A stretch of 20,229 bases of DNA, taken from positions 1-20,229 of the IMG/VR virus record IMGVR_UViG_3300031840_000054. One strand, written 5' to 3'. Positions 1 through 19,475 of the stretch are shown here, in pieces. Each line of letters starts with the position of its first letter. Within the stretch, counting starts at the first letter, position 1. The stretch is from a virus. Both the position numbers and the translations under genes were made by a program. The notes under the pieces are model-generated. The model was not told where the DNA came from. It did no database searches and saw nothing but the letters and a program-made list of their open reading frames with translations.

Positions 1-8
1 GGTTTAGC

Positions 9-152: not shown

Positions 153-154
153 GA

Positions 155-618: not shown

Positions 619-715
619 CAAGAGGAGACCTGAAAAGGGAACGCAGTATCAAGACAATTGGGAAAGGATATTTGGTAAGAAAGATGGCAATAAAAGGAAG
701 AAACCCAAACGCTAA
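605..715 (+). CDS. Small basic phage protein (MSKGSKRRP type, 36 aa)
   Basis: This 36-residue, very basic protein begins with Met-Ser-Lys-Gly-Ser-Lys-Arg-Arg-Pro, contains a central Asn-Trp-Glu-Arg-Ile-Phe, and ends in a Lys/Arg-rich tail. Small proteins with an N-terminal MS(K/R)GSK.RP and a central (D/N).W..IF recur in podovirus and lambdoid genomes near recombination genes. From memory this is such a family, function unknown. The charge would suit nucleic-acid binding, but that is inference. It overlaps the end of the 42-aa gene upstream and the start of the Ref-like gene downstream by about 30 bases. A weak GGGA lies 4 bases before the ATG. Confidence 0.6.
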   Translation: MSKGSKRRPEKGTQYQDNWERIFGKKDGNKRKKPKR

Positions 716-1255: not shown

Positions 1256-1418
1256 ATCAATCATAGTAGAAACAACAGAGGGAGACTTCCAAGTTGATAC
1301 CCATGTTGTTAAAGGCAAATCGTTTACTGGTGTGGAACGCAAGTTTAAAGGCGAACACATTGTAGCCATATTAAAAATAGATGAAGATCAGTTTATGGTT
1401 TTTGTAGAAACAGAATGA
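1242..1418 (+). CDS. Small hypothetical protein (58 aa)
   Basis: This gene starts with ATG at 1242, overlapping the last 14 bases of the 88-aa gene, and ends with TGA at 1416-1418. GGAG at 1231-1234 lies 7 bases before the start. The sequence alternates hydrophobic and charged residues (IIVET, FQVDTHVV, HIVAILKI, FMVFVE), as expected of a small all-beta domain of four or five strands. No function is assigned. The overlap, the good ribosome binding site and the strand-like pattern make it a credible gene. It is the last gene before the only real intergenic gap of the left module. Confidence 0.65.
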   Translation: MISLKSIIVETTEGDFQVDTHVVKGKSFTGVERKFKGEHIVAILKIDEDQFMVFVETE

Positions 1419-1434
1419 CGGCTGGAATGGATCG

Positions 1435-1462
1435 TTGCAATAACACAGCAGTCGGTTATAAA
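1435..1462 (+). promoter_or_regulatory. Putative sigma70-type promoter upstream of the RusA-like gene
   Basis: TTGCAA at 1435-1440 and TATAAA at 1457-1462 are separated by 16 bases. They match the -35 consensus at 4 of 6 positions and the -10 at 5 of 6. They lie in the only gap longer than a few bases on this strand, 25 bases before the ATG of the RusA-like gene. An imperfect stem (1419-1424 with 1449-1454, one G-U pair) overlaps the -35 region. In such AT-rich DNA a match like this can arise by chance. Confidence 0.35.
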
Positions 1463-1486
1463 ATATATTTTACCAGTCAATAGAAT

Positions 1487-1894
1487 ATGACCTTCGTGAC
1501 CTTACCTCTTGAAGTTTACTACTCTGAAAAGAAGAAATTTATCCTGAACCTAAACAATTATCGCAATGCTCATTACAGGATTTTGTCCATTGCAAAGAAA
1601 ATCTATACAGAAAACTTAGTAGAAAGGATAAAAGACTTTGCTAAGTTTAATGACCCTGTTTCCTTAGAGTATGTTTACTATGCCAAAAGCAATCGAAGAT
1701 TAGATGTGAGTAATCCTTGTTCTATTATAGATAAGTTTACTTGCGATGCTTTGGTCAAGGCTGAGATCATAGAGGATGATAGTTTTAAACAGATTAAAAA
1801 GGTGTCGTATGTATTTGGGGGTGTGGATAAACATAACCCTAGATGTGAACTTACGATTAAGTGTTTTCCATTAGTAAGGAGTAAAGATGAATAA
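1487..1894 (+). CDS. RusA-like Holliday junction resolvase (divergent)
   Basis: The 135-residue product has the layout of RusA-family crossover-junction endonucleases, which are about 120-140 residues and act as dimers on four-way DNA junctions. The signature is D73-x-S75-N76, then I81-D82-K83-F84, C86-D87-A88-L89, and the acidic pair D97-D98, followed by a hydrophobic strand and GGVD with NPR near residues 111-119. In E. coli RusA the catalytic acids are D70, D72 and D91; here the second Asp of the DxD pair is Ser75, as I recall for some phage variants. The preceding in-frame stop (TAG, 1481-1483) fixes the ATG at 1487. No good Shine-Dalgarno sequence precedes it, so a short leader from the putative promoter at 1435-1462 is possible. 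It probably resolves branched replication or recombination intermediates before packaging. Confidence 0.8.
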   Translation: MTFVTLPLEVYYSEKKKFILNLNNYRNAHYRILSIAKKIYTENLVERIKDFAKFNDPVSLEYVYYAKSNRRLDVSNPCSIIDKFTCDALVKAEIIEDDSFKQIKKVSYVFGGVDKHNPRCELTIKCFPLVRSKDE

Positions 1895-2102
1895 AGATGA
1901 AGTGACTTACGATGAAGTCAAGCAATGGGCAGAGAATATAGATAGAGAAGATTTACTTCAGATTATTACTGATATTGCTAACAAGTATTACTTGCCTAGA
2001 ATATTGGTAAAAGATATTAAAAATGAAAGTGGTTTTAAAATGGCAGGATGGTTAGAAAAATTAATGGAGGAAGATAATGTCGATGATGATAGAACAGCTT
2101 GA
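1887..2102 (+). CDS. Small acidic hypothetical protein (71 aa)
   Basis: This gene begins with ATG at 1887, inside the last codons of the RusA-like gene, with AAGGAG at 1876-1881 five bases upstream. It ends with TGA at 2100-2102, within the next gene. The protein is strongly acidic, with Asp/Glu runs at both ends, and mostly helical; residues 20-45 carry an Ile/Leu-rich amphipathic stretch. I do not recognise the family. Its overlap with rusA suggests it is made in parallel with the resolvase. An acidic partner or DNA-mimic role would be speculation. Confidence 0.7.
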   Translation: MNKDEVTYDEVKQWAENIDREDLLQIITDIANKYYLPRILVKDIKNESGFKMAGWLEKLMEEDNVDDDRTA

Positions 2103-2535
2103 ACAAAAGCTACAAGAAAGGAAAGAGGCTTGGTGGGAGTGGCATAAGAAGAACCCTCAAGTGTGGAATAAGTTTGAGGAGTATACGCTAGAAGCTATTA
2201 AGACTGGCAGAAAGCATTACTCTCATTGGGCAATCATTAATCGGATTAGGTGGAACAGGGAGATAGAAACCAATGGTGGGGAGTTTAAAATCAGCAATGA
2301 TTACATCAGCTTTTATGCTCGTCTGTTTCATGCTCGTCATCCTGATCACAATGACTTCTTTAAGTTAAAACAATTTAAGGAAGAGAAAATCATCGAACAG
2401 CTAAAGAGTGTGGATGAAAACATTGATCGAATGTCAGACAAAATAGTTGATCTAAGCAACGCAGTTGAAAGGGTGAACCAGAAATCGCAGCGTCTGGCAG
2501 CCCAGAAAAATATATTATTTACTGGTAAGAGATAA
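2077..2535 (+). CDS. Conserved phage protein of unknown function (152 aa)
   Basis: The start is ATG at 2077, with GGAGG at 2066-2070 six bases upstream, overlapping the acidic 71-aa gene by 26 bases. The N-terminal 100 residues contain a pattern I recall from many phage and prophage genomes near recombination and replication genes. It comprises Trp-rich helices, then WAIINRIRWNREIETNGGEFKI (about 50-72), an N-D-Y aromatic strand, FYARLFHARHP (about 79-89), and an FF near 94. Its function is unknown to me; the Arg/Trp/His-rich conserved block could bind nucleic acid. Residues about 105-145 form a separate Ile/Leu/Val heptad-like coiled coil. It is the last gene of the rightward module, and its stop codon lies one base from that of the convergent giant gene. 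Confidence 0.8.
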   Translation: MSMMIEQLEQKLQERKEAWWEWHKKNPQVWNKFEEYTLEAIKTGRKHYSHWAIINRIRWNREIETNGGEFKISNDYISFYARLFHARHPDHNDFFKLKQFKEEKIIEQLKSVDENIDRMSDKIVDLSNAVERVNQKSQRLAAQKNILFTGKR

Positions 2536-2536
2536 C

Positions 2537-5500
2537 CTATCGCAGGATGACACCCACTGTATCAGGTGGGATATCTGCTTTTTGTCTTAGTTCAGGAATC
2601 ATTGCCAGTCTTTTATCTCTTTCTATTTGCAAGTCTAACAACATATCACTTCTAACATTTGCGTTGATGTCTGTTCTGTTGAGAATCCTATCTCTTCTTT
2701 TTCTCCAATTCCTCATGTATCTTTCTATGGCTCTGACCTGACCTTTTGCATTTAACAGTCCTTGTACTTGGTTTCTGTAAGCGTAGAGTTCATCCATTCT
2801 GCCATCTTCTCTGAGAGAGTTCATGGTGGTCACAGCAGTATTAACCTCTTCTCTGAGTTTATAGAATTGTTGTTGCAGTCCTCCCATCCTTTCTTGATCG
2901 CCAACAAACCTACCAACAACAGGAATTTGTTTGATGTTAGGTGGCATGAGAGGTGTGCCAGTCACTGACCTTGCAAGAGCATCAGTGATAGTCAAGGCAT
3001 AACCTCCTAGTGTTCCTGTGTAGCCTTTGAAGATGTACTCAAGTTTGATTGGGGATATGTTAAATTGTTCTCCTATTAGTCTAAACAATTCATTAGTTGA
3101 CTCTCTTGTTTGATAGGCAGGTTTTTCTTTTTCCATAAAGTAAGGCACTATTTCTGAGTTAGTAAATGAGGCTCTATTAGTGACTGCTTCAAAGATAGGT
3201 TTGATTGCTTGTATGCTTACATCTCCACCTAAAAATGGTATATCAGCAGATGTGCTTAATTGTCTAGATACTGATTCTTTAAAATCTGTAATTGAAGTTT
3301 CAGAAAATGCATCTTCTCCACTAATTAAATCAAAAAATCTTTCAGGTATGGCTTTACCTAACATACCTATTTCAAATGGAATTGGTATATAAATAACATT
3401 GCCACCACCTATAGGAATGATCCAATTGTCATCTCTTTTTTCTAGCTTTTCTGCTTTATATTCATCAGTATCACTAACCAAAGCGTAATACAAAGCAGTT
3501 GTACCAATTAACACAGCCATTCTGCTTAATGCTCTACGCATAATCATGCCTTGTAAATCTTCTAATGAACCACCCTCTTGCAATTTATCTTGTGCAGAAT
3601 ATTTACCAGTAAATGATCTATACAGAACATCTAGACCTTGAACTCTTGCATTTAAAAAAGGAATTGCAGTAGTTAATATTTTAAAAGATGTTGATTGTCC
3701 ACGCCTTCCAAAGTTAATTATTTCTAATCCTTGATAAGCTGCTTCAGATTGAGCCTGAGCTTCTGTGTAATATTTTCCTGTGACTGGATCAATAGATTTT
3801 TTTAATTTTTTATAGACTGCATCTGCTACAGCTTTTCTAGTTGCTCCATCAGATTTAGTTGTTAAGTGACCCAATCCATCCCATAGTTTATAAAATGCTA
3901 CATCAGGTCTCATACCATTATTTGTTGAGAGTCCAGCTCTTCTTCTTGCTCTGTTTAAGAAATCTTTTACATCACCTTCGTCATTTGCAAAGTCATATCC
4001 ACCTATGACTCCAAACTCTTCTAATGAACTTATGTCACCAAATAAATTTTTAAATGAATCTATTACTGGTGTAAATCCTTCACCTCCTAATGGTGCACCA
4101 GAAGTAACTGCTGCAGACAATGTATCTCTTAATACATTAACAAATACAAATCCAGGATCACGAGTTACTGTATCTCTTAATAATCCTGCAGGCATTGCAA
4201 TAGCTTTCATAATTCCATCTACTTTAATACCACCTATAGATTGCATAGCCATAAATAAATCTATGTCTGCAATTTGATAATGTTTTTTATTTCCGTTTTC
4301 AAAAACAAATACACTATTTATTCCTGCTAATTTATTTTTATCTGTAATAAGAGTTGCTTCTTTTATTCCTTTTTCAGGATTATTAAGTTGTTCAAAGTCT
4401 CTTATAAGTTTTCTCATGCCATCATTCTTCATAGCAGCAGTTAAAATAGATAAAGAGTTTCTTGCTATAGCTTCTATAGGATCAACATCAATTTTTTCTT
4501 CAGACCCTTTCATTGGCATATTTAAAGGGTTGTTAGGCAGTGAGCCACCTGCAATGGTAGGTGCAGTAATATTTGCATCATCTACCATAGTTCTATAGAA
4601 AGGATAATAGCTTGAATGTTCTATCCATTTTGCAGCTTGATCTGCATCTAACAATCCTTTTTCAGTAGCAAACTTTACTAATCCATTGTTCCATTTTTGA
4701 TAGTTGTTATATGTTTCTACCACTACTGGATGTTCTCTTTCAATAGTTTCAATAGCTTGTAGTTCTTTAGAAGTAATTGGAGAGGCTATTTCTTCTCCTC
4801 TTTCATTTAATTTTTTAACTCTTTTTAACTTAGCATACAAAGCAAACACACCTTCTAAATCTACTTCAGGATCAGATTGAAGTGCTGATAGTATTTGCAT
4901 TAATCCACCTGTAGAAGTATCACCTTCAATTAATGGGTTATATCTTGTGTTAATTACTAAATCAATAACTTTAGTCAAAGAAGGTAATTTCTCTATAACA
5001 TCTACTGGTATACCTTTTAACAACATTTGTTGAAAAATACCTCTTGCTCTATCTGCCATACGAATTGCAGCTATACTTGCTGTATCTGCAGTGTTATTAG
5101 CTAGTCTAACTTCTTCATTTTCTTCTGATCCTTTAAGTATTCTTTTATCAAGAAGGTCTTTACTATCTATATAACTTTGTCTAAAAGTTTTAAATCTTTT
5201 TTTAATGCTGTTAATAGGGTCAGATGCAAAGTCAATTAATCTTGTGGCTTGTGATTGTTTAGGTGTAGCAACTCCTACTGCATCTGCAGCTTCTTGTAAA
5301 TTAGATGGCATAGCTCTAGAAAAAGTAGGTATGTCATCAGGTGCAGTCTTAAGAGGGTCTTGATTAAACTCTATAGCAGCTTCTAAGGCGATGTCTGAAG
5401 CGTTCATATTGTAAAAAGGTATATCACCCCTAGGTGTTTCTTTTGTTCTTTCTTCAGCTACCTTTACAGCTTCTCTTCTTTTGATGCTTTCATTAGAGTT

Positions 5501-8500
5501 GCCATCGCTAAAATTTCTAGATGCTCTGCTAAACAATGGTATGTCTTGAGGTGATGATTCTAGATATCCTAAATCTATTAAATTATCATAATGACTTTCT
5601 AATTGAGCACTATATCTAAAATCATTTTTTAGATTTGCTGGAACACTTTGTATTTGTTGAATTGAAAATAAAGCAGATTGTTTATCTTCATTATTTAATC
5701 TTTGTCTTTCTTGTATGCCATCTGGAAGAGTAGCTATTGCTAATGCTTGATTTATATTTTGATCATTAATAATATTTGTATCTACAAGTAATTCAACTTT
5801 ATCTGTTAATGATTTTTTAAATTGTGGTAATAAAAATTTTATTCCTAAATCTTCTAAATTATTAGCAGAATATATTTTTTCTTTTTGTGGTAATGCTTTG
5901 CCTGTTGGCTCAAACATAATAATTACTGGTGCATCAATAGCACCATCTTTTTGACCTAAAACTAATCTATGTCTACCTTCATGTCCTATAACTTTTCCAT
6001 CTTCGTTAATAGATAAATAAGGATATGCACCAACATATCTATTCATTCTTCTTGGTAATTTATTAAAAATATCTGGATCAAAATTAGGATTTAAAGCTAC
6101 TGTATCTCCCATAACATCAACATTTTTTGGTTTTTCAGATTTAATTAATTCAAAAATTGTTTTATCAGAAGTCAACATTAAAAAATCATCTATAGGCATC
6201 CTTGTAATAAAAGGTAAAACTAAACGAGAGGTATTTTCAGTTTCATTTTTTGCCCACTCATTTGTATATTCTAAATTTTCTTTTGTTAAATCTAAATATG
6301 CAGGTGAATCTTTAGTAGCTGCTCTACTAAATAAAGGTACTTGTTCTGGAGGTAGATTGTTTCTTTCTTCTACCAGTCTTGCTCTTTGTCCTTTAAGAAC
6401 ATCTATCTCATTAGACATTCTGTTGTAAGAAGCTGTGCCAAGGTATTGACCATCTTGTCGTAAAGTATTTTCTTTAATTTCTATTCGTCTATCAAGGTCA
6501 GCAATTCTATTATCTAACTCACCTCGTTTACTAATCCTTGAGAATGTAGGCACATCTTGTCTAGCTTCATTAAGAGTAACGCCTTCATCTAATATAAGTT
6601 TGTTTTCACCACGAACTCCATAGGTATAAGAACCATTTCTAAGAAGTTGTAGCCATAAATTTTTAACATTTGTAACAGCATCTTTTTTGTTAAAAGCATT
6701 TAAGTTTATTGATGAAATATCAGATTTAAGTGTTACACCATTAATTATTTGTTCTGCTGGTGATTCTAAATACCATGACCCATCATCAAATTTAAAAATT
6801 TGTAATTTATAATTATTAAGTTCTCCATTGTGATAAACAATATCCATACCAGCTTCTTCTGGTTTAGCTTTTGTATATGTAAATGGTTTAGTTACAACTA
6901 CTTCTGTAGGTCTAGTAGCAAAAGGAACTGTATCTGGCTCTTTAGGTTTTTTAGGTTTTTTTTCTGGTTCTATAGGCGGTGCTCTTGGCACTAATGATTC
7001 TAATCCTGTTTGTCCTAAATCTAAAACCTCTGCTGCATTAGATAAAAATGCAGATAATTCAGTATCTAATTTAGCTGGTATTCCTAATATTTTTCTTATA
7101 CTTTCTACAAAACCTTGCCATAAAGTTTTATTATTTTTATATGGAATACTTTCAAGCATTTTTTGAAAATTTCTATTTGTTAAACCAAAAGTAATCATTT
7201 CAGAAACATCTTGTTCTTTTTGTTTTCCTTTTCCAAATAATTGATAACCTATTTCAAATTCTCTAAATGCCTCTAAATTAATTTGAGAAAGATAAGTATT
7301 TTGTTGTATGTATGTATAAGGCACATCTGGATTTTCTTTAATAAATATTTGTGCTATTTCTGCTTCTATAGGATTATTTGCTGCTAAATCAAATAATTTT
7401 TCTGCTATTTCTTTTTGAACCTTAGAATTATCTAATTGTTTAGATGCATTTCTATAGTATTTAATTTTATCGTCATAATGTTTTTTAAGTCTTTTTTGTT
7501 GAGACTGTAATTCTTTATATGCATTTTCTACTCTAGCAAATGATTGAGCATCACCTGTTGCATTACCATCTTTAACAGCAAACATTTGAGCTACTGTTGC
7601 TTGATGAATATTTTCATGTAAAAGAGTTTCAAAATTTACTCCATTATTACTTCTCCATTGATCTTTATCAACATTATAAAAATCGTTAGGATCAGAAATT
7701 TGCATAGATAAAACAGCAGTTCTTTTTCGATTTGTTGCTATAGTTTTTCCGTCTGCTTGTAAAGGAGTTATTTGTCCTCTAAAACTATTTATTTTATTTT
7801 CTATTTCAAAAGGAAATTTATAACCAATTTTTTGCAAATCAAGTAAAGATTTATGAGTTTTTTGAGCAATAATTTTATAATCTTCACTAGGAGAATTATC
7901 TATTAGCCATTTAAGCATTTTAATAGAATCGTTATTTCCTTTTTTTGTGTTTATTACATTACCATCTGCATCAAAAATATCTTGATCTATTACTCCAGCT
8001 TTTTGTAAACCTAATAATATATTAGTTCTTTGTTGTATATATTCTTCATTACTTATACTTCTATTATCAAAAATAGTAGTAGGTTTAGAAGGTGTAACAG
8101 GTGGTGTTGCAACTGGTGGGGTAGTTGGTGTAGTAGTTAATGTATCAAACTCAGGATCAGAAGTAATATTATAAGGTTTAGAACTTATATTAGGGTAAAA
8201 AGTAAAAGTACCATCTTCATATCTTTTTACATCTGCATCAAAAATTTCTTTTGCTTTTCTTCCTTTAACTGTATTTGTATCAAAACCTGCAACTTTTAAT
8301 AATTCTTGTAAAAAATTTACATCACCATCTTCTTCAAATTTTTTTGCAAAGTTTTTTAGGTTTTTAGTTTGCGGAAGAAAATCTCTAAATACTTGATAAT
8401 CAGTAGCATCACCACCATTAAACTCAGAATAATACCTTACTAAGTGATTATAAGCATAAGGATTTTTAAATTTTATAGGAGGATTTTTTCCTTGAGGAAC

Positions 8501-11500
8501 AAGTGTTGTTGGTGCAACTGGTGTTGTTGGTGTTACAGGCGTAGTAGGTGTAGTAGGTGGCGTAGTAGTTGGTGTACTTCTAGGATCAAACGCTAAAGGT
8601 CTAGGACTTGTAGGTTTAACTTTTGTTTCTACTACTGGACCAGTAGGAGTCTCTGCATCATCTTCATAATCGGTCACAACTTGAGCTTGTGCTCTACCAG
8701 CTTGATCTAAGTCTCGTAAGGTTCTTATCTCACCTCTAGCTCTAGCTCCAACTCTACCTGCTTCTATGTCTTGGAATATATCTGCAGCTTTGTTGTAGCC
8801 TGATATCTTCATAGCATTGCCAATGCTTTGGAAGAACTGAACAATCTTGTTATAGATACCTTTAGCTTTAGGTGGTACATCTTTAGCCACTACTTCTCTA
8901 GCTCTAAATAGTTCTGCTATAGCTTCTTCTATATAGATTTCTTCTTTTTTATTTGTACTTGCACCATATTTTTCAATGCCTTTATTTATTCTTTTACTTC
9001 TATCATAAAAAGTTTCTTTTTTTTCAAAGGCTTGAGCATCAACTGCTTGAGGTACTCTTTTATTTTTAACTAAATTCTTTAAATATCTGTATTCACTTTC
9101 TGTAATTAAATCTTTAGCTCGTAAAGCATGAATCATTTCATGATCTAGAATTTTGTTTAATCGTGTTTGTATTTCTGCATCAGTAGCATTGCCATCAGGA
9201 TTAACTGCATTTAATGATAAGAAAATAATATCTGTATTTTTGTCGTATTCTCCTTCTACAGCACCTTCTTCGGCTGTTTCTCTTGTTATTCTAGGATCAA
9301 AAGCTATTTGCCCATCTTGTTCTTTTAATACTGAAGTAGATAAAATGTCATTACTTACAACTATACCTGTATCTTTTAAACCTCTAGCATCTAGAGACTT
9401 ACGCAATTCTTTAGCAAACTTATTGGTTCGCCCTTCTTCTATAGCTTCTGCAAAGTTTATGGTTTGTTCTTCTAGTTGTTCAGGAGGAGTGTAAGGTTCT
9501 TGTCTGGCTGTTTCGTTTTGAACCATTTGTTCAATAACTTCTGGTTTAAGTTCACCTTGGCTTTCTAACCTAGCACGAAACTCTTCAGGAGACTCGTTAA
9601 AGCCTTCTGCTCTTCTGGCAATATCAAACTCAAAGTTAGGTCTAATTTGTCTTACAGAGGTTAAAAATCCTTTCTCTTTACCTTTAACAAACTGTGCTCT
9701 ACCACTTTGATCTAAGTCTCGCAAAAAATCTGAAGCAGCAAGTGTAGATATTTCTCTATTTCCTAAAAAGTTTTGTACATCTTTACCAGTAAATTCAGTT
9801 GAGCCTATGGTTGCTACAAAGTCTGCAGTATCTTTTGCAGAGTAAGCTCTAGGTGCAAAGTTAGGAAATGGGGTTTTAACATTAAAGGAAGGAAGAGAGT
9901 GAAGTTTAGCCAAGAACAATTCTTTTTGTCCTTTGCTCATCTTGGAATAATTTGATTCACCAGTATATAGTTTTGCTGCATAGTTTACAGCAGGAGTATT
10001 GAAGTCTAGTTCTATGTTTTTACCAGCAGCAAACTCTTTAATATATTTTCTAGATGTATCAATGGTTTGTTTGCCATCACGAATAGATGGTATGCCGTTT
10101 TTTTCTGAAGTTTCAAATATTTTGGCTGCAGCATCAGATGCAAACTGATTAAACTGTGATTTGTTTAATAGTTTTTGTGCATCTGCAATGGTGTATTGAT
10201 TTTGAAATGGAAGTTTGTTGTAAGTACCTGCAGTCTCTAGCTCTTCTCTATACTCTTTAAGAGTTTTGTTTTTAGCTTTAGGGTCATACTTAATAATTGT
10301 ATTAATGCCAACAGATATAGAGTTTGGATTTAATAAACTTTCACCAATCCTATATGCAGTAGAACTGTTAATAAGTCCTTGAGAATATAGATCGTTGTTT
10401 AGTTGTTGTATGATTTGTGTTTGTGCAAAAGCATCTTTAACTTTTTTGTTTTCAGCTAAGGCTTCTGCTTGAGTTGGCACTGTTTTAATAACAGGGTTTT
10501 CAAGATTGTTTTGATCCAACAAAGAAAATGTTGAATCGGTATTTTCTATAATTTGTAAGTCAGGTGCAATTGCAGGTTCTACTGGTGCAGGTATGTTTGG
10601 AGCAACTTTAAATGGTTGATCTTGTATTACTGGTAATACACCTTGTTGTTCTGCTAGTTCTGCTTTTTTAGCTTCAATTAATTTATTAGAATCTACTTTG
10701 GCTCGTTCTGCTCTTTCACCTTCTTCATGAGTAGCAATACCTCTACGCTTTTGCATACTGTTAAAGACAAGATCAGCAGTACCACCGACAATACCACCAA
10801 GAGTAAACTCTTCAAATACACTATCTATTAATGGTAGTTCATCGCTGTATAAACCACGAGCAACCATATTTTGTAATAAACTTGCTGCTACTTCTTGAGC
10901 ACCTTCAAATGTTCCTGACTGTGCAGCAGACTTCATGTACTCAAGTATGAGTTGTTTAGTTGGTAAATCTTCTAATGCTTTCCTTGGAACTTTCTTTAAG
11001 ATATTAGCAACAGGCATTATTTCTGTAGCACCTATAGCACCACCAAGTAATGTGGCTACAGTTTCTTTAAAACCACCTACTTCTTCTCCTAATCCTCTAG
11101 AGGCTTCAATAAGATCAGCTTGTTGACCCATACCTGCTGGAACTGCTAAACCTAATGGAATACCATACTGTCCTGCTCTTGCACCTATTGTACCTGCTTT
11201 AGCTAATGCTCCACCTACTACACCAGCTCCTAAAAAAGGAATAAAAGAACCAAATGCACCACCTAGTTTTGTGCTGTATAAATCTTCATAACCAGCTTCA
11301 GGTGCTAGTGCTGAATCTTCTTGTAAATATTTTTCAAAGTCAGTAATGCCTTTATATAAATCGCTGTCATCACCGACATCAAACAAAGCAACTGGACCTT
11401 TAATGGCAGAAGCTAATGTAGCCAAACCTTGTCTAGGTATAGCTTTACCAAACTCAACAGCTCTACCACTAAGTGTTGGTTCATCTATATTAAATCCATC

Positions 11501-11602
11501 ATACTGTCTACTTACAGCAGCAGCTAATTCAGACCTTTTTACAGGGTCTAAATTATCTGGAATTTTAATTACCTTCCCATCAGGCAAAGTTACTTCTTTC
11601 AT
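2537..11602 (-). CDS. Giant polyvalent-type ejection (internal virion) protein, 3021 aa
   Basis: This is the last and by far largest gene of the leftward virion operon, one base after the 531-aa gene. Visible layout: a short N-terminal segment; Gly/Ala-rich hydrophobic segments at about 113-160, 181-203 and 263-281; a metallopeptidase-like domain with HEMIH (821-825) and E893 or E897; Pro/Thr linkers near 1008-1033 and 1155-1175; a second HExxH (1329-1333) with E1468; a Lys/Pro-rich linker near 1550; a ParB/Srx-like GHEGRHR (1873-1879); and a C-terminal region of about 900 residues around RDPGFVFVNVLRDTLSA (from 2481) that resembles LPD38 of large polyvalent proteins. Established knowledge: polyvalent proteins of phages and conjugative elements are thought to enter the recipient with the DNA, and T7 gp16, P22 gp16 and N4 vRNAP are ejected last-gene giants. 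Ejection and the individual activities here are inferred. No polymerase motif was recognised. Confidence 0.85.
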   Translation of the reverse strand: MKEVTLPDGKVIKIPDNLDPVKRSELAAAVSRQYDGFNIDEPTLSGRAVEFGKAIPRQGLATLASAIKGPVALFDVGDDSDLYKGITDFEKYLQEDSALAPEAGYEDLYSTKLGGAFGSFIPFLGAGVVGGALAKAGTIGARAGQYGIPLGLAVPAGMGQQADLIEASRGLGEEVGGFKETVATLLGGAIGATEIMPVANILKKVPRKALEDLPTKQLILEYMKSAAQSGTFEGAQEVAASLLQNMVARGLYSDELPLIDSVFEEFTLGGIVGGTADLVFNSMQKRRGIATHEEGERAERAKVDSNKLIEAKKAELAEQQGVLPVIQDQPFKVAPNIPAPVEPAIAPDLQIIENTDSTFSLLDQNNLENPVIKTVPTQAEALAENKKVKDAFAQTQIIQQLNNDLYSQGLINSSTAYRIGESLLNPNSISVGINTIIKYDPKAKNKTLKEYREELETAGTYNKLPFQNQYTIADAQKLLNKSQFNQFASDAAAKIFETSEKNGIPSIRDGKQTIDTSRKYIKEFAAGKNIELDFNTPAVNYAAKLYTGESNYSKMSKGQKELFLAKLHSLPSFNVKTPFPNFAPRAYSAKDTADFVATIGSTEFTGKDVQNFLGNREISTLAASDFLRDLDQSGRAQFVKGKEKGFLTSVRQIRPNFEFDIARRAEGFNESPEEFRARLESQGELKPEVIEQMVQNETARQEPYTPPEQLEEQTINFAEAIEEGRTNKFAKELRKSLDARGLKDTGIVVSNDILSTSVLKEQDGQIAFDPRITRETAEEGAVEGEYDKNTDIIFLSLNAVNPDGNATDAEIQTRLNKILDHEMIHALRAKDLITESEYRYLKNLVKNKRVPQAVDAQAFEKKETFYDRSKRINKGIEKYGASTNKKEEIYIEEAIAELFRAREVVAKDVPPKAKGIYNKIVQFFQSIGNAMKISGYNKAADIFQDIEAGRVGARARGEIRTLRDLDQAGRAQAQVVTDYEDDAETPTGPVVETKVKPTSPRPLAFDPRSTPTTTPPTTPTTPVTPTTPVAPTTLVPQGKNPPIKFKNPYAYNHLVRYYSEFNGGDATDYQVFRDFLPQTKNLKNFAKKFEEDGDVNFLQELLKVAGFDTNTVKGRKAKEIFDADVKRYEDGTFTFYPNISSKPYNITSDPEFDTLTTTPTTPPVATPPVTPSKPTTIFDNRSISNEEYIQQRTNILLGLQKAGVIDQDIFDADGNVINTKKGNNDSIKMLKWLIDNSPSEDYKIIAQKTHKSLLDLQKIGYKFPFEIENKINSFRGQITPLQADGKTIATNRKRTAVLSMQISDPNDFYNVDKDQWRSNNGVNFETLLHENIHQATVAQMFAVKDGNATGDAQSFARVENAYKELQSQQKRLKKHYDDKIKYYRNASKQLDNSKVQKEIAEKLFDLAANNPIEAEIAQIFIKENPDVPYTYIQQNTYLSQINLEAFREFEIGYQLFGKGKQKEQDVSEMITFGLTNRNFQKMLESIPYKNNKTLWQGFVESIRKILGIPAKLDTELSAFLSNAAEVLDLGQTGLESLVPRAPPIEPEKKPKKPKEPDTVPFATRPTEVVVTKPFTYTKAKPEEAGMDIVYHNGELNNYKLQIFKFDDGSWYLESPAEQIINGVTLKSDISSINLNAFNKKDAVTNVKNLWLQLLRNGSYTYGVRGENKLILDEGVTLNEARQDVPTFSRISKRGELDNRIADLDRRIEIKENTLRQDGQYLGTASYNRMSNEIDVLKGQRARLVEERNNLPPEQVPLFSRAATKDSPAYLDLTKENLEYTNEWAKNETENTSRLVLPFITRMPIDDFLMLTSDKTIFELIKSEKPKNVDVMGDTVALNPNFDPDIFNKLPRRMNRYVGAYPYLSINEDGKVIGHEGRHRLVLGQKDGAIDAPVIIMFEPTGKALPQKEKIYSANNLEDLGIKFLLPQFKKSLTDKVELLVDTNIINDQNINQALAIATLPDGIQERQRLNNEDKQSALFSIQQIQSVPANLKNDFRYSAQLESHYDNLIDLGYLESSPQDIPLFSRASRNFSDGNSNESIKRREAVKVAEERTKETPRGDIPFYNMNASDIALEAAIEFNQDPLKTAPDDIPTFSRAMPSNLQEAADAVGVATPKQSQATRLIDFASDPINSIKKRFKTFRQSYIDSKDLLDKRILKGSEENEEVRLANNTADTASIAAIRMADRARGIFQQMLLKGIPVDVIEKLPSLTKVIDLVINTRYNPLIEGDTSTGGLMQILSALQSDPEVDLEGVFALYAKLKRVKKLNERGEEIASPITSKELQAIETIEREHPVVVETYNNYQKWNNGLVKFATEKGLLDADQAAKWIEHSSYYPFYRTMVDDANITAPTIAGGSLPNNPLNMPMKGSEEKIDVDPIEAIARNSLSILTAAMKNDGMRKLIRDFEQLNNPEKGIKEATLITDKNKLAGINSVFVFENGNKKHYQIADIDLFMAMQSIGGIKVDGIMKAIAMPAGLLRDTVTRDPGFVFVNVLRDTLSAAVTSGAPLGGEGFTPVIDSFKNLFGDISSLEEFGVIGGYDFANDEGDVKDFLNRARRRAGLSTNNGMRPDVAFYKLWDGLGHLTTKSDGATRKAVADAVYKKLKKSIDPVTGKYYTEAQAQSEAAYQGLEIINFGRRGQSTSFKILTTAIPFLNARVQGLDVLYRSFTGKYSAQDKLQEGGSLEDLQGMIMRRALSRMAVLIGTTALYYALVSDTDEYKAEKLEKRDDNWIIPIGGGNVIYIPIPFEIGMLGKAIPERFFDLISGEDAFSETSITDFKESVSRQLSTSADIPFLGGDVSIQAIKPIFEAVTNRASFTNSEIVPYFMEKEKPAYQTRESTNELFRLIGEQFNISPIKLEYIFKGYTGTLGGYALTITDALARSVTGTPLMPPNIKQIPVVGRFVGDQERMGGLQQQFYKLREEVNTAVTTMNSLREDGRMDELYAYRNQVQGLLNAKGQVRAIERYMRNWRKRRDRILNRTDINANVRSDMLLDLQIERDKRLAMIPELRQKADIPPDTVGVILR
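5315..5335 (-). other. DIPTFSR motif, copy 4 (residues 2090-2096)
   Basis: This copy sits directly before the C-terminal LPD38-like region of about 925 residues. The serine codon is TCT, and it is followed by Ala-Met-Pro. Confidence 0.7.
5525..5545 (-). other. DIPLFSR motif, copy 3 (residues 2020-2026)
   Basis: This copy ends the ParB/Srx-like segment and starts a short charged linker of about 63 residues. The serine codon is AGC, and it is followed by Ala-Ser. Confidence 0.7.
5966..5983 (-). other. ParB/sulfiredoxin-like GHEGRHR motif in the giant protein
   Basis: Residues 1874-1879 read H-E-G-R-H-R, preceded by I-N-E-D-G-K-V-I-G and followed by a hydrophobic helix, a Gly-Ala turn and A-P-V-I-I-M. 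This strand, EGRHR, helix, G-x2-(A/V)-P-V arrangement resembles the nucleotide-binding core of ParB/Srx-fold domains, which are known in polyvalent proteins. The fold assignment is inference from the motif only. Confidence 0.5.
6323..6343 (-). other. QVPLFSR motif, copy 2 (residues 1754-1760)
   Basis: This copy sits between the short coiled coil (about 1690-1753) and the segment with the ParB/Srx-like motif. The serine codon is AGT, and it is followed by Ala-Ala. Confidence 0.7.
6536..6556 (-). other. DVPTFSR motif, copy 1 (residues 1683-1689)
   Basis: First of four related heptapeptides of pattern (D/Q)-(I/V)-P-(L/T)-F-S-R in the giant protein. It ends the segment after the second zincin and precedes a short coiled coil. 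The serine codon is TCA. Confidence 0.7.
7601..7618 (-). other. Second zincin active site (HENIH) in the giant protein
   Basis: Residues 1329-1333 read His-Glu-Asn-Ile-His, preceded by Leu-Leu and followed by Q-A-T. About 135 residues on comes V-S-E1468-M-I-T-F-G-L-T-N, then LWQGFVESIRKILG, an arrangement typical of phage zincins with a distant third ligand. It is unrelated in local sequence to the HEMIH domain, so this is not a simple duplication. Confidence 0.7.
8077..8141 (-). repeat. Second Pro/Thr-rich linker in the giant gene
   Basis: A second Thr/Pro-rich stretch (about residues 1155-1175), similar in composition to 8503-8577. The two bracket a domain of about 120 residues and precede the second zincin region. 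Confidence 0.65.
8503..8577 (-). repeat. Pro/Thr-rich linker repeat in the giant gene
   Basis: Low-complexity coding repeat built from Thr-Pro and Thr-Thr-Pro units (about residues 1009-1033) with Val and Ala interruptions. It separates the first zincin region from the following segment and is probably an extended interdomain linker. The short GT-rich units are prone to slippage. Confidence 0.75.
8687..8719 (-). repeat. LRDLDQAGRAQ repeat, copy 2 (residues 962-972)
   Basis: This 33-base stretch matches 9692-9724 at 29 of 33 positions and encodes the same undecapeptide except Ala for Ser. It lies just after the first zincin domain and before the first Pro/Thr linker. Confidence 0.75.
9125..9142 (-). 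other. First zincin active site (HEMIH) in the giant protein
   Basis: Residues 821-825 read His-Glu-Met-Ile-His, followed by Ala-Leu-Arg and an E-S-E-Y-R helix. A downstream EEAIAELFR (892-900) can supply the third zinc ligand, E893 or E897. The pattern of HE.(V/I)HALR, an acidic/aromatic helix and later E.(I/V)AE.FR is one I associate with peptidases embedded in phage polyvalent proteins. All expected catalytic residues are present. Confidence 0.75.
9692..9724 (-). repeat. LRDLDQSGRAQ repeat, copy 1 (residues 627-637)
   Basis: Partner of 8687-8719, in direct orientation about 1 kb away. It lies before the first zincin domain, so the two copies bracket residues 638-961. Confidence 0.75.
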
Positions 11603-11603
11603 T

Positions 11604-13199
11604 TTATCCGTATGAAGCTATTACATTAGCATCTTCACTTGCTGGTTTAGTTTCTTGACCTTCTAATTCAGCATATCTTTTTGCTAAAGCATTATATTGA
11701 ACCATAGCTGCTTCCATATCAGTAATTAATCCAGCTTCAGATGCTTTTATAAGATTTGTCATTTGTGAAAGAAGTGCTTCTTTAGGCATAGCTTCAATAT
11801 TAGCAAGTATTTGTTCAGTTTGTGCTTCAGTTAATTTACCTTGTAGTCCAACTAATCCACGCTTATCTTGTGCATCTAGTACACCAGTAACTGCTGTACC
11901 AATATCACCTATATTTTTAGCACTCATAATACCTGCACCTAGTCTTACTAAATCACGATAGTCTCCTTTGTTTTCTTTTGCACCAGCTAAACCTTTTAAT
12001 TCGTTTAATTCTGTTATTTGTTTTTCTAACTCTTGTATTCTTAATTGTTCTGTTGTTAATTCTTTTTTACTTTCATCAGAAACTACATCACTTGTTTCAG
12101 AATCACCCATTGCTTGATTAATTGCACCTAAAACAGGCGTTGCTATTACAGCACTTGTTAGAGGATTATCAATTATTGGTTGTATAAATGGTCGACCTGG
12201 ACCTGCTTCTTCAATAGTTTCTCTTAAAACTCCACCAGGTTGAGTTCCACCACCTTTTATTTTTACATCTGGTAATGGGGTATCTTTTGTTTTGGCTTTT
12301 CTAAAATAATTTTTTAAACCTCTATATCCTTTACCAATCATAGGTAAACCTTTTTGTAAAACCTTTCCTGCTACTCCTAGTCCAGGAGTAATAGCAACAT
12401 AATCCATAAATTCATCACCAAATTTTTCACCAAACATAAACTTAAATGCTTGATCTCCAACTTGATTTCTAATTTCTGCTAATCTTTCTAAATCAATATT
12501 ATCTCCTAATGCATCCATACCCATACCTGCTCCCATCATAGGTGCACTACCTGCAGGTAAAGCAGTCATATCTCCTGTTGCATAACCTGTTAAACCACCA
12601 CTAGCTTTTTTATTTATTATTTGATTAGCTAATTCAACAAACATTTTTTCTTCATTTGGATTTAATCTAATATTATTTCCACTACCTCCCATAATACTAA
12701 AAGCTCTATCTCCTATATTAGACATTCGACCTGCTATTTGACCTCTTTCTTCTATTCTATTTTGTGCAATTTTATTTAAAATTTCACTATATTGTTTAGA
12801 AGTAATTTTAGAATTAGCAGCTAAAAATGGGTCTTGTCCTGCTTTATATTCTGTTTTACCTTTATTAGCATAACCAGTAATACCACCACTAGCTGCCATT
12901 TGCATAGGAGCAGTTGGTGCACCAGATAATCCTGCAGAGATATTTGTAGGCAAGGGAGTTGCCTGTGGTGCACCACCCTGCAAACCTGTAGGTTGTGCAA
13001 AGTCACTTACTACTTCTTCAGCTACTGTAGTAGTAGGTTGATTAAGCATAGCTTGATAATTTTTTTCGTTAGTGGTTCTTCTTTGTATTTCACTTAATAC
13101 TAAAAATGGAGGAAATTGTGCATTAGGGTCTTGTGACATACTAACCAATTGATCTTTAGGCACATCTTCTAAAAAGTTTGCTTGTTGTACTAAATTCAT
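11604..13199 (-). CDS. Internal virion / ejection-type protein, 531 aa
   Basis: The N terminus (LEDVPKDQL with FLVLSEIQRR, residues 10-41) is a helical block I associate with marine podovirus virion proteins encoded just before the giant gene. Two copies of A-S-G-G-(I/L)-T-G-Y-A follow (103-111 and 199-207), within Gly/Met-rich, probably flexible sequence. A hydrophobic stretch at 347-362 precedes a coiled coil (about 382-403) and an Ala/Leu-rich helical C terminus (about 415-512). No enzymatic motif is seen. It starts 2 bases after the 475-aa gene and ends 1 base before the giant gene. By position it resembles the middle ejection proteins of T7 (gp14/gp15) or P22 (gp7/gp20). That role is inferred from order, composition and helical content, not from recognised homology. 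Confidence 0.75.
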   Translation of the reverse strand: MNLVQQANFLEDVPKDQLVSMSQDPNAQFPPFLVLSEIQRRTTNEKNYQAMLNQPTTTVAEEVVSDFAQPTGLQGGAPQATPLPTNISAGLSGAPTAPMQMAASGGITGYANKGKTEYKAGQDPFLAANSKITSKQYSEILNKIAQNRIEERGQIAGRMSNIGDRAFSIMGGSGNNIRLNPNEEKMFVELANQIINKKASGGLTGYATGDMTALPAGSAPMMGAGMGMDALGDNIDLERLAEIRNQVGDQAFKFMFGEKFGDEFMDYVAITPGLGVAGKVLQKGLPMIGKGYRGLKNYFRKAKTKDTPLPDVKIKGGGTQPGGVLRETIEEAGPGRPFIQPIIDNPLTSAVIATPVLGAINQAMGDSETSDVVSDESKKELTTEQLRIQELEKQITELNELKGLAGAKENKGDYRDLVRLGAGIMSAKNIGDIGTAVTGVLDAQDKRGLVGLQGKLTEAQTEQILANIEAMPKEALLSQMTNLIKASEAGLITDMEAAMVQYNALAKRYAELEGQETKPASEDANVIASYG

Positions 13200-13201: not shown

Positions 13202-14629
13202 TTAACCCATCCCTTTATAAAGACCAAGACCTGCTAGACCAGCACCTACTGCTTGTTGAAATAATCCAGGTTGTTGACTGTATGTACTTATTCTTTGCTC
13301 TGGCTGTACTGGTACACCTCTTAACATACCACTAAAGTCACTAAGCTGTCGTTTAGAAAAGTCTCGTTGACGCATGAAATCTTCATATCCCATATCCATA
13401 CTAGCTTGTCGCAAGGCTCTGTCTTGAGCACCAATGCCACTTAAAGCACCGATTCTAGAAAGCACATCTTGTTGTTGTGCACTACCTATACTCTGTAAGC
13501 CTTGAGCTGCCATCATGTTATAACGATTGGACATATCATATGCACTTTGTCCAAACCTTTCTTGTGCTTGACGAGCAGCTTCATTCTGTTGATCTGCTGT
13601 TAAATTAAGTTTAGCTGCTTGTTGTCTTGCAGCTTCACCAGCTTGATAGGCTTGTAAACTTTGTATACCTTCTTGTTGTAAGGCTTGTTGTTGCATTTGA
13701 AATCCGCTTTGAGCAAATTTTTCTTGAGCCTGTCTTGCAGCTTCTTCTTGTTGCTGTGCAGATAACCCAAGTTGAGCAGCCTGTTGTCTAGCTTGTTCAC
13801 CTGCATTAAATGATGCTTGTGATAATTGTTCTTGTGTTTGCAATGCACCTTCTTGTGCACCAAATCTAGATAAACCAAATTGTGCACCACTAAGTTGTGC
13901 AGCTCTTTCTCTTTCAAGTTGTGCTTGTGCTGATTCAAAAGCTCTTTGACTGCCCATTGTTTGAATGTCACCTAGCTGTTGTGCAAGATTTCTTTCTCTT
14001 TCTGATTGTTGTATAGCTTCACGATATCCACCTAGTCCACCTTGTGCTGTAGCTTGATCACCTATGCCTTTGCTCATAATGTCTGATTGACGAGCAGCTT
14101 CTCTTTTTTCTATATCAATAACATTCTGTTGATATGGTGACATAAACCTAGAAAGATTTTGTTCATAAGCTAATGGATCGTATGTTGGCAATGCTTGACC
14201 AGCCATATATTGAGATGCTCTTGTTCTAGCATCATATCCTGCATCAAACCCACCAGCTTGATAATTAGGATTGTAAGTACCTGCTTGATAAGTTTGACCT
14301 ACTTCTCTTGGATCATAAGTAGATTGAGTTTGACCTGCTGTATAGCCTGAAGTTATTGGAGCAACTGATCCAAATCTAGCTTGAGCATCTGTGTATGCTT
14401 GTGGTGTACCTGATGTAGCATAGCCACGAGTCATTGCCTGTGATGTTAATTCATCAGGAGAAAAGTATGCTAATCGTTGACCACCATAAGGTTGATAACC
14501 TTGTATGCTGTCAGCTTCAGCTCTTTGTAATAATCTTTCAAAATACGGCTGTACATATTCTGGTAGATCAGTTTGAGTTACAGTTGTTTCTGTTGGTCCG
14601 CTACTACCGCCACCTTTAAACTTTCTCAT
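13202..14629 (-). CDS. Gln/Ala-rich internal virion-type protein, 475 aa
   Basis: The start overlaps the preceding stop (ATGA). The N terminus is Gly/Ser-rich, then LPEYVQPYFERLLQRAE (residues 22-38) and YQPYGGQR, a combination I recall from marine podovirus structural proteins. Residues 95-160 are rich in Tyr, Gly and Thr. Residues 165-365 are long helices rich in Gln, Ala, Arg and Glu. They include two copies of a 35-residue unit (276-310 and 330-364) repeated with a 54-residue period, likely a rod-like coiled coil. The C terminus is glycine-rich and hydrophobic (459-474). Such composition suits ejected proteins that assemble as a tube. There is no catalytic motif. Placement between the GNAT-like and 531-aa genes supports an internal virion role, but a tail or fibre-associated role cannot be excluded. 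Confidence 0.75.
   Translation of the reverse strand: MRKFKGGGSSGPTETTVTQTDLPEYVQPYFERLLQRAEADSIQGYQPYGGQRLAYFSPDELTSQAMTRGYATSGTPQAYTDAQARFGSVAPITSGYTAGQTQSTYDPREVGQTYQAGTYNPNYQAGGFDAGYDARTRASQYMAGQALPTYDPLAYEQNLSRFMSPYQQNVIDIEKREAARQSDIMSKGIGDQATAQGGLGGYREAIQQSERERNLAQQLGDIQTMGSQRAFESAQAQLERERAAQLSGAQFGLSRFGAQEGALQTQEQLSQASFNAGEQARQQAAQLGLSAQQQEEAARQAQEKFAQSGFQMQQQALQQEGIQSLQAYQAGEAARQQAAKLNLTADQQNEAARQAQERFGQSAYDMSNRYNMMAAQGLQSIGSAQQQDVLSRIGALSGIGAQDRALRQASMDMGYEDFMRQRDFSKRQLSDFSGMLRGVPVQPEQRISTYSQQPGLFQQAVGAGLAGLGLYKGMG
13538..13642 (-). repeat. 35-residue coding repeat, unit 2
   Basis: Encodes residues 330-364, starting A-G-E-A-A-R-Q-Q-A-A and ending A-R-Q-A-Q-E-R-F-G-Q-S-A-Y. Differences from unit 1 are mostly conservative (Q/K, E/N, K/R, F/Y), which suggests an old duplication kept under selection. 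Confidence 0.75.
13700..13804 (-). repeat. 35-residue coding repeat, unit 1
   Basis: Encodes residues 276-310 of the 475-aa protein, starting A-G-E-Q-A-R-Q-Q-A-A and ending A-R-Q-A-Q-E-K-F-A-Q-S-G-F. It is similar to unit 2 at 13538-13642, with 162 bases between equivalent positions. Confidence 0.75.
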
Positions 14630-17414: not shown

Positions 17415-17610
17415 GTTTTATTCCCATAAGTAAAAATTGTTGTCGTCTAGAAGCCTTACTTATAGTAGTAGACTTCATTCTATTAATTAAAGTAATTTTA
17501 GTATTGATTTCTTCAATAGCTTGTTCTATTAATCTGCGTGTAACTGCTTCATTATTTGGATCAAACTCTTGACTAGGTAAGGGTAATGCTATCGTTTTGA
17601 TATCAGCCAT
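17407..17610 (-). CDS. Small helical virion-cluster protein (67 aa)
   Basis: This short gene is coupled to the tail hub gene by a TAATG overlap at 17608-17612. The first 20 residues (MADIKTIALPLPSQEFDPNN) look extended. Residues 21-60 form a charged amphipathic helix with I/L/I spacing suited to oligomerisation. Similar short proteins with ALPLP..EFDP..E occur beside podovirus tail hub genes as I remember them, without a known function. A tail assembly or hub-plug role is a guess from position. Confidence 0.65.
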   Translation of the reverse strand: MADIKTIALPLPSQEFDPNNEAVTRRLIEQAIEEINTKITLINRMKSTTISKASRRQQFLLMGIKHG

Positions 17611-19475
17611 TATCTTTTACCATCTGGTCTAATCTCTAGTCTAAGGTCTCCTGCTCTCCAACCATAGTCACTAGATGAGTTTGATATTCTAACTGCAGCT
17701 TGTCTGCTTCTAGCTCTAGTATTAGAAAATGTAGAGTTAGGTGTTACATCAACTGTTTGTAATGTAGTTAAGTCTTGCAGTGGATAGTCTCTACCTTTAA
17801 TGGTGTAAGTAACACTATCACTTGTACCTTGTTGATCTCTAAACTGTACATCAGGTATGAGTTTAGATATAAAAGTAAATCTTTCACCATCTGGCTCTAA
17901 GTCAAAGTCACTTGACTCTATGTATGCTGTAAAGTTACTGCCATCATTACCATGACCTTTTTCATGATTATAAACATAGTTAAGATTGGTTGAATCATTT
18001 TTACTTGCAGCTATAGGATATTCTAGTATTGATGCTTGATCCCATGCTGTTCTAACAAAGCCATCATCAGTTGTGCCTATACTCCAAACATTTTCAAGAT
18101 AATTATATAAAACATATTTATCTATTTCTGTATTAGTGCCTGATGGATAAAACCACATTATTTCATTAGCAAGATTATTGACTGCAGCAAACACTTTAAA
18201 TAACTGATCTTGGTTTAAATCAGATAAAACATAGTCTAATACTGTACATTGTATTTTTTCTGCAGAACCTGAGTAGGCATAAAACCCACCAGCATCCATA
18301 AAATAAACTCTATTATTAGCACTTACAGCAGCATTAGGTCCTATAAGAGATGGACCTTCTGCTACTTCTGTAAATGAAAATATAAATGGTTCGCCAACAA
18401 AACGCATAGAAATAATACCTACATCAGTCCATATAAGTATTTCTTGCCTTGTTTTAAGTGCTCCAATAATTTCAGAACCTTGTGAAAGTTGTACGCCACC
18501 AGCTTGATTAGTTGCTGTAGGAGTCCAATCTACTGCACTTTCTCTATCAGAAAATCTTACCAGTAAAGGGTCTATAGTGCTTGAACCTATAGGATTGCAA
18601 CCAAATGCAATACAGTGTTTATCTACATCAGAAGTCATTACTTGTATAACTGCTGTAGGTACATCACTTGCACTTGATTCTGCTGATAGCAGTGTAGCTC
18701 TGGTGCTTAAACCATCTGACTCATCCCAAAAATATATTGGTCCACCTCTAGGTGCAGCAAGAGTATCATCACCAAAATTATCTATAGTCCATAATCTAAG
18801 TTGATTAGTTAAAGATAAATCAGCTTTTGATCCCCATGTTCCTGCTCCCCAAGGATTTACACCCCAACCAGTAGAACGAACATAAACATCTAATCCTGAG
18901 TTAATTTGATATACACCATCTACCCCTGAACCACCATTACCTGTATCGCTTGAATTAGCAGTAACAGTATTACCATCAGTATCTTTAGCAGTAAAAGTAT
19001 AAGTATCTACACTAGGTACAGAGTCAATTTGATATTCTTGATTTAAAACAGAAGCTGTAATTAACCCACCTAAACTAACAGCTTGTGCAAAAGTAACAAA
19101 ATCTCCTTCAACTGCTCCATGTGCATTGTCAGTAGCTGTAATAGTAGATGATCCATTAGTTGCTGCAAATACAACACCATTGGTAGAAGTAGCTCTAATA
19201 GGATTTATATCGTAATAAACATCTCCATTAAGAACATAAAGTTTTTGATGAGTGCCAAGTATTATAAACTGATCGCCATCAATAGCTTTATATGGGTATA
19301 GTTTTCTACAAGTTCCAATAAAACTTCCATCAGTAAATTTATCCCAGCCACCTATGCGTTCAGGTTTACCTTTACGAAATCTTACTTTGTCAGCATCAAA
19401 CCAACCATATTCATTACTGTAGTTAGTACCTTCTTTATTTATACCGGGTCTAAAAACATATTTAACTAAAGGCAT
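17610..19475 (-). CDS. P22 gp10-like tail hub / head-completion protein, 621 aa
   Basis: The layout fits the family of P22 gp10, a beta-propeller-like hub or stopper protein that closes the portal and anchors the tail. Visible marks: an N terminus with RPGINKEGTNYSNEYGW and VRFRKGKPERIGGW (9-45), typical of marine relatives; repeated beta strands throughout; QEILIWTDVGIISMRFVGEPFIFSF (344-368), where P22 gp10 has FIVCFGSSTIEYF; and SANNRVYFMDAGGFYAYSG (385-403). The last 40 residues hold R-x-R-x-R-Q-A-A-V-R-I and end in a charged strand. Residues about 100-195 look like an inserted small beta domain (TITATDNAHGAVEGDFVTF). The length is greater than P22 gp10 (about 470 residues), which the insert partly explains. 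It follows the endolysin by a TAATG overlap. Confidence 0.65.
   Translation of the reverse strand: MPLVKYVFRPGINKEGTNYSNEYGWFDADKVRFRKGKPERIGGWDKFTDGSFIGTCRKLYPYKAIDGDQFIILGTHQKLYVLNGDVYYDINPIRATSTNGVVFAATNGSSTITATDNAHGAVEGDFVTFAQAVSLGGLITASVLNQEYQIDSVPSVDTYTFTAKDTDGNTVTANSSDTGNGGSGVDGVYQINSGLDVYVRSTGWGVNPWGAGTWGSKADLSLTNQLRLWTIDNFGDDTLAAPRGGPIYFWDESDGLSTRATLLSAESSASDVPTAVIQVMTSDVDKHCIAFGCNPIGSSTIDPLLVRFSDRESAVDWTPTATNQAGGVQLSQGSEIIGALKTRQEILIWTDVGIISMRFVGEPFIFSFTEVAEGPSLIGPNAAVSANNRVYFMDAGGFYAYSGSAEKIQCTVLDYVLSDLNQDQLFKVFAAVNNLANEIMWFYPSGTNTEIDKYVLYNYLENVWSIGTTDDGFVRTAWDQASILEYPIAASKNDSTNLNYVYNHEKGHGNDGSNFTAYIESSDFDLEPDGERFTFISKLIPDVQFRDQQGTSDSVTYTIKGRDYPLQDLTTLQTVDVTPNSTFSNTRARSRQAAVRISNSSSDYGWRAGDLRLEIRPDGKR

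Follow-up and report, generated by a model that had tools for sequence, protein, structure and literature searches.

A giant gene and its conserved frame

The window analysed here is the entire IMG/VR record IMGVR_UViG_3300031840_000054, 20,229 bases in all, and is therefore probably a fragment of a phage genome. Its minus strand carries a giant gene that starts with ATG and runs through 3021 codons with 0 internal stops, confirming the single uninterrupted frame described in the initial annotation. Within this frame a seven-residue peptide, which we call the junction, recurs four times and bounds segments, or cassettes, that related phages exchange by recombination at the junction itself while keeping the reading frame. 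Neither the repeated peptide nor the exchange figured in the initial annotation. An identical giant is carried by IMGVR_UViG_3300032081_000261, and a full-length relative in another contig reaches 81% identity in its best segment. L-numbers (L002, L139 and so on) label the sequences compared with the window giant.

Four parts of the protein are conserved across relatives from viral contigs: the N-terminal 560 residues, the region of a predicted peptidase (peptidase 1), usually a second HExxH domain (domain 2), and a C-terminal module some 900 residues long. The C-terminal module contains LPD38 at residues 2713-2887 (E 1.2e-32; 114 bits against a Pfam cut-off of 27), a domain present in 12/13 family members, so that the profile search bears out the earlier assignment to the LPD-type polyvalent giants. 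The long C terminus around RDPGFVFVNVLRDTLSA, which begins at residue 2481, had been thought conserved, and this segment is in fact near-invariant among relatives. A relative of the module in the Aeromonas phage phiARM81mr is annotated as a virion structural protein. In Pelagibacter phage HTVC010P (L155, 9761-11275), a relative of the module occurs as a stand-alone 504-aa (amino acid) protein, perhaps an older, simpler form.

Both HExxH sites noted before are present, HEMIH at residue 821 and HENIH at 1329, as are the Pro/Thr-rich linkers, at residues ~981-1050 and ~1131-1190. The hydrophobic N-terminal segments do exist and are weak, with a best 19-residue mean of 1.67 at residues ~113-139. 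The window chain carries two domains of the HExxH type and one resembling a winged helix. In the predicted structure, the elements of peptidase 1 follow a zincin-like order: strands, the HEMIH helix (808-829), and a later helix (883-900) bearing Glu 892. This arrangement, with HExxH on one helix and a Glu on a later one, is kept in all junction-bearing giants. The Pfam match of peptidase 1 to SprT-like proteins is weak (E 0.13).

A repeated junction peptide bounds variable cassettes

We surveyed 64 giants for the junction, [DQ][IVL]P[LTN]FSR or, more widely defined, [DQ][IVL]P[LTN][FY]S[RK]. The window giant has four copies within residues 1683-2096, compared with a mean of 0.02 in the shuffled protein, and copy number across the survey ranges from 0 to 6, in the zone that separates domain 2 from the C-terminal module. 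The local structure predicted at the junctions is of low confidence. Segments between junctions sort into 18 families, of which 15 have at least two members, and their order and combination vary among giants. The window array reads C7-C2-C0, while its near relative L017/L003 has C7-C4-C1-C0 and L097 has C4-C5-C2-C1-C0; C6-C2-C1-C8 and C10-C2-C12-C0 occur among further relatives. The suspicion in the initial annotation that the domain combination may be undescribed falls short of the finding, since the combination is not fixed and is shuffled among relatives at a conserved peptide.

Cassette types include ADP-ribosyltransferase (ART)-like, GNAT-like, HEGRHR and coiled-coil forms. C11 (E 1.8e-4) and C17 (E 1.1e-6) match ART-PolyVal, in each case under the curated cut-off, and C14 is weakly GNAT-like; these are cassettes of relatives, not of the window. 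C13 contains a second copy of domain 2, and in L059 and L054 this duplicated HExxH domain moves as a cassette. The GHEGRHR motif reported earlier is found at residue 1873, within C2. The C2/HEGRHR domain gave no convincing profile match in PHROG, NCBIfam, PADLOC or PDB, a Pfam scan of the entire protein placed no model on it, and C2 was not found in the plasmids searched. Matches of other cassettes to PADLOC were weak and were treated as chance.

Several observations extend beyond the arrays. The TPRGxIPxYNxNASD sequence of segment C0 is kept even by giants that have lost every junction. C5-type cassettes also occur, lacking junctions, in other and mostly shorter phage proteins (L371-L400; ~320-840 aa), often near the C terminus. 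Comparison of L074 with L072, from a deeper sister lineage, reveals an ART-like segment inserted after peptidase 1 and directly before an SRFS[RK]SGLT peptide, which suggests a divergent junction. Finally, L320 (ORF, open reading frame, at nucleotides 2-8323) is a giant in which no parts of the window-giant family were detectable; between its residues 1100 and 1690 the peptide D[IV]R[FY]S[LI] occurs four times (0.15 expected) at spacings of 173-223 residues, bounding ART-like modules and an HEGRHR module. These peptides are possibly a second junction code and hint at a wider scheme.

Selection on the peptide and exchange at the junction

For the junction serine, 82 copies use AGT/AGC and 66 use TCN, and the four junctions of the window gene use four different serine codons (TCA, AGT, AGC and TCT). 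Since both codon classes are used, the peptide itself is under selection: the junction is maintained at the protein level and is not just a DNA seam. The search pattern requires S, so that 100% serine among the copies is partly by construction. Decayed copies are seen as well (PLFSE, PLFFR and SLFERS).

Cassette C2 of the window and C2 of L139/L005 share 89% nucleotide identity, whereas the figure for the same pair is 69-70% in peptidase 1 and in the C-terminal module. In 9/10 junction comparisons, nucleotide identity jumps across the 21-nucleotide junction, from 0.29-0.46 on one side to 0.94-0.98 on the other; the one exception lies at C2's far end, where a small insertion or deletion blurs the change. 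Among pairs of giants with divergent C-terminal modules, 56/157 ends of high-identity blocks (36%) lie within 10 nucleotides of a junction, compared with 6% expected if positions are drawn at random from the variable zone; the ends are non-independent, and no p-value is attached to the count. Many of the block ends away from junctions stem from fragmented alignments. We therefore find that recombination at the junction moves cassettes between related phages with the reading frame kept, and that some of these exchanges, between divergent giants, are recent.

Junctions and peptidase 1

All 45 giants with at least one junction (45/45) keep both the HExxH and the later Glu of peptidase 1. In eight others both have been lost, and these eight have no junction at all (8/8) and retain the HExxH of domain 2. 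Mere loss of cassettes does not account for the link, as two of the giants with a dead peptidase 1 each keep a cassette: L143 retains C5 with neither flanking junction, and L091 retains C4 with its junction decayed to QLSLFERS. A single clade of all dead forms is rejected (approximately unbiased test, p 9e-5), and the tree calls for three changes to the dead state, two of them on well-supported branches. Domain 2 went undetected in several junction-bearing giants and is therefore unlikely to be the general processing enzyme. The co-occurrence of junctions with an intact peptidase 1 suggests that this peptidase cuts at the junctions and releases the cassettes.

Domain 2, the operon and probable ejection

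Profile comparison with the PDB aligns domain 2 with phiKMV gp37 (9sfn_G; E 8.7e-23) over ~155 residues that include the HExxH and the downstream helices and, more weakly (E ~2e-4), with the C-terminal HExxH region of the N4 virion RNA polymerase (vRNAP). Translated searches (tblastn) hit phiKMV gp37 in the same region, and the N4 counterpart is part of an ejected protein (PMC12633501). Given the kinship of domain 2 with internal virion proteins of solved structure, and the gene's position in the operon, the giant is likely to be packaged and ejected with the DNA, domain 2 being the best support for this reading. Identity as a virion RNA polymerase was rejected: the giant has no Pfam match to a T7-like single-subunit RNA polymerase domain, and its PHROG match is restricted to the HExxH domain (best phrog_2206 stretch, residues 1301-1524). 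Pfam and PHROG likewise gave no lytic transglycosylase or endolysin match within the giant.

On the minus strand the operon runs from lysozyme through a tail-hub-like protein, four smaller genes, a 475-aa gene and a 531-aa gene to the giant. The initial annotation's description of the giant as last in the ejection operon fits: a member of the DNA-ejection family phrog_4287 lies two genes upstream, and the next gene is on the opposite strand. One further operon gene (15099-17072) encodes a low-complexity protein of 657 aa with no family match. The opposite-strand genes adjoining the giant include those for a Ref-like RecA-dependent nuclease and a RusA-like resolvase (672-992 and 1487-1894), possible players in cassette exchange. 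The tail-hub-like protein is 38% identical across its full length to the 'stabilization protein' of phage DSL-LC04; by this protein the closest cultured phages are DSL-LC04, Roseobacter phages CRP-901/902 and Pelagibacter phage HTVC023P. These matches fit an aquatic podovirus; the source of the window is an uncultured marine phage. Homology of the window giant to the ejection genes of DSL-LC04, CRP-901 and HTVC023P was not detectable, and a scan of bacterial genomes for a host found no relatives of the giant.

Table 1. Features of the window; residues refer to the giant.
Feature	Position	Strand	Basis
ORF of the 3021-aa giant, closing the virion/ejection operon	2537..11602	-	ORF call; identical/homologous giants in other contigs
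Conserved N-terminal region, residues 1-560, mostly helical	9923..11602	-	Alignment; AlphaFold model
Winged-helix-like domain, residues 583-656	9635..9856	-	Structure comparison: best Z 8.1, root-mean-square deviation 2.2 over 64 residues, many winged-helix rows
Peptidase 1, residues ~717-900, HEMIH 821-825 (9128-9142) and Glu 892	8903..9454	-	Alignment; predicted secondary structure; active-site survey, 64 giants
Pro/Thr linker between the peptidases, residues 985-1050	8453..8650	-	Composition
HExxH domain 2, residues 1166-1545, HENIH 1329-1333 (7604-7618)	6968..8107	-	Profile vs PDB
Module 1546-1682, in window and L003, mostly missing from other relatives	6557..6967	-	Indel map
Junction 1, DVPTFSR, 1683-1689, Ser codon TCA	6536..6556	-	Sequence
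Cassette C7, 1690-1753, predicted coiled-coil hairpin	6344..6535	-	Cassette clustering; predicted structure
Junction 2, QVPLFSR, 1754-1760, Ser codon AGT; exchange point vs L139	6323..6343	-	Nucleotide identity 0.33 upstream, 0.97 downstream
Cassette C2, 1761-2019, invariant HEGRHR (GHEGRHR at 5966-5986)	5546..6322	-	Nucleotide identity vs L139/L005
Junction 3, DIPLFSR, 2020-2026, Ser codon AGC	5525..5545	-	Sequence
Segment C0, 2027-2089, conserved TPRGxIPxYNxNASD	5336..5524	-	Cassette clustering; alignment
Junction 4, DIPTFSR, 2090-2096, Ser codon TCT	5315..5335	-	Sequence
Conserved C-terminal module 2097-3021, incl. LPD38 (2713-2887; 2942-3466)	2540..5314	-	Pfam; alignments
531-aa gene upstream of the giant, same operon, no confident family	11604..13199	-	Pfam/PHROG scans
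475-aa gene two upstream of the giant, DNA-ejection-protein family phrog_4287	13202..14629	-	E 4.4e-8
Podovirus stabilisation/tail-hub-like structural protein, phrog_3287, same operon	17610..19475	-	E 5e-76

Proposed mechanism and alternatives

We propose that the giant is packaged as an internal virion protein and ejected along with the DNA. Its fixed frame, made up of the N-terminal region, peptidase 1, usually domain 2, and the LPD38 module, would carry interchangeable effector cassettes ahead of the C-terminal module. Each cassette would be bounded by the junction, where recombination would swap cassettes in frame between related phages, and peptidase 1 would cut the junctions, before or after ejection, so that each cassette becomes a protein of its own inside the host cell. 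For the proposal as a whole, an ejected polyvalent giant with exchangeable, junction-bounded cassettes cut by peptidase 1, we judge the chances to be balanced; for the cutting step itself, which is argued from co-occurrence, the odds are about even, and an effector role of the cassettes is what we infer. The earlier reading of an injected polyvalent giant holds in its LPD38, its ejection-type operon and the homology of domain 2 to phiKMV gp37 and N4 vRNAP; the host-takeover or anti-defence activities suggested there stay putative. A ParB-like (DdrB-like) label for the HEGRHR domain goes no further than motif resemblance, and the model of C2 is of low confidence.

A number of points weigh against the proposal. 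Only 2-3 independent inactivations of peptidase 1 are seen, too few to reach significance in a sign test, and the link to the junctions was dropped as statistical proof. A lineage comprising L048, L046/L221 and L066 has decayed junctions (PLFSE, DIPLWSA) despite an intact peptidase 1; with so few losses, and with junctions lost here too, the link is suggestive only. Deeper lineages with an intact peptidase 1 carry zero or one junction, and the junction was not found in the distant cultured LPD38 giants checked. Foldseek/VIA-align matches included no zincin fold; in the fold searches of both models, the listed rows were taken by the winged helix and the coiled-coil hairpin, so that these searches are uninformative for peptidase 1 and silent on C2 and the C-terminal module. 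Precedent on cutting goes both ways: N4 vRNAP, whose C-terminal region shares domain 2, is reported to be packaged uncut, and P1 DdrB to be cut ahead of packaging (Iyer et al. 2017, PMC5512222).

The principal alternative is that the junction serves as a flexible linker and recombination seam, the cassettes working in one uncut chain and peptidase 1 doing something else. This would suit the location of the crossovers on the junction, the low-confidence structure predicted there, and the uncut transfer of plasmid polyvalent proteins and N4 vRNAP (PMC5512222). Junction DNA is also more alike than codon usage predicts, with the same codon used at a rate of 0.73 against 0.51 expected, an excess that counts against our proposal as well, since shared descent or exchange would give it. 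A mere linker, however, need not retain P-x-F-S-R through both serine codon classes, and it leaves unexplained why giants with a dead peptidase 1 lose junctions while keeping cassettes. We regard this alternative as a substantial possibility that falls clearly short of even. Peptidase 1 might instead enter the host as an effector in its own right, with a host protein as its substrate, an option named for such peptidases by Iyer et al. (PMC5512222); its joint loss with the junctions would then reflect general effector loss in some lineages, and the peptidase-dead clade often lacks cassettes as well. Retention of the domain 2 HExxH in all peptidase-1-dead giants, and the two dead forms that retain a cassette but not its junctions, make this unlikely in our judgement.

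As a scaffold, core or tape-measure-like structural part that is not ejected, with cassettes serving assembly, the giant would be at home in a structural operon, and the phiARM81mr annotation would fit; matches of cassettes to ART-PolyVal and GNAT-like proteins are hard to reconcile with a purely structural role, and the homologues of domain 2 are ejection proteins, so that we consider such a role very improbable. Chimeric contigs could in principle mimic the shuffling, as the close relatives are all metagenome assemblies. In fact, the same arrays occur in more than one contig (L002 is identical to the window, and L306 and L308 share the same cassette match on two contigs), the frames remain open and the breakpoints land on one in-frame peptide, which leaves this explanation with next to no probability. 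The proposal of an ejected, junction-cut giant also has a broader form, a self-processing effector array whose chain brings its own peptidase, whose cassettes are parted by one fixed cleavage peptide and are exchanged there at the population level, and through which each phage would inject different released effectors; this we advance tentatively, at slightly less than an even chance.

The cleavage of polyvalent virion proteins, both its occurrence and its sites, has been an open question since 2017 and now becomes testable: the family supplies candidates for the enzyme and for the peptide it cuts, along with natural knock-outs. The shuffling takes place inside one gene, at a frame-keeping seam, and involves effector-like domains of a protein that is probably injected; the junction can be used to find and delimit unknown injected domains in metagenomes. 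If cleaved, the junction would define a new site-specific protease; if the L320-type scheme with another peptide holds true, the self-processing effector array would be a general design.

Comparison with known systems

The N4 vRNAP (PDB 9pnr, 11fw; PMC12633501) is likewise a giant ejected protein, and its C-terminal HExxH domain aligns with domain 2. It differs in its RNA polymerase domain, which was not detected in the window giant. We know of no swappable cassettes in N4 vRNAP. The phiKMV gp37-type internal virion protein (PDB 9sfn, 1337 aa) shares the HExxH domain, but is under half the length of the giant and has an endolysin/transglycosylase domain not found in the window giant.

Among cultured phages, LPD38 giants of Escherichia phages Pondi and PTXU04, Vibrio phages 1.232.O and D274, and Planktothrix phage Pag-Yong1 match the C-terminal module at 25-26% identity over 60-76% of the query and are, where checked, large late-operon proteins. 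Those of Pondi, 1.232.O, Pag-Yong1 and the other giants checked differ in having no junction repeats and in their N-terminal parts. In the prohead-protease maturation of SPN3US (gp245, motif AXE; PMC10052503), a phage protease cuts head proteins, including ejection proteins, at a short motif. That protease is a separate protein and mostly removes propeptides, whereas the candidate protease of the window giant lies in the same chain and its putative sites lie between cassettes.

By its LPD38 the giant belongs to the polyvalent proteins (Iyer et al. 2017, PMC5512222), which combine disparate domains in one chain, among them LPD38, zincin-like peptidases and ART-like domains. They share a late virion gene context, found also in the giant's operon, and were predicted to be injected and autoprocessed, with processing proposed for their peptidases. 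The main text of PMC5512222 names neither a junction motif nor a linker peptide, and the literature searched, which covered few subscription papers, held no earlier report of such junctions or shuffling; as far as that literature shows, junction-delimited, shuffled cassettes are undescribed. The window family differs from the polyvalent proteins of that study in having a fixed peptide that bounds its cassettes, marks their exchange points and tracks one peptidase.
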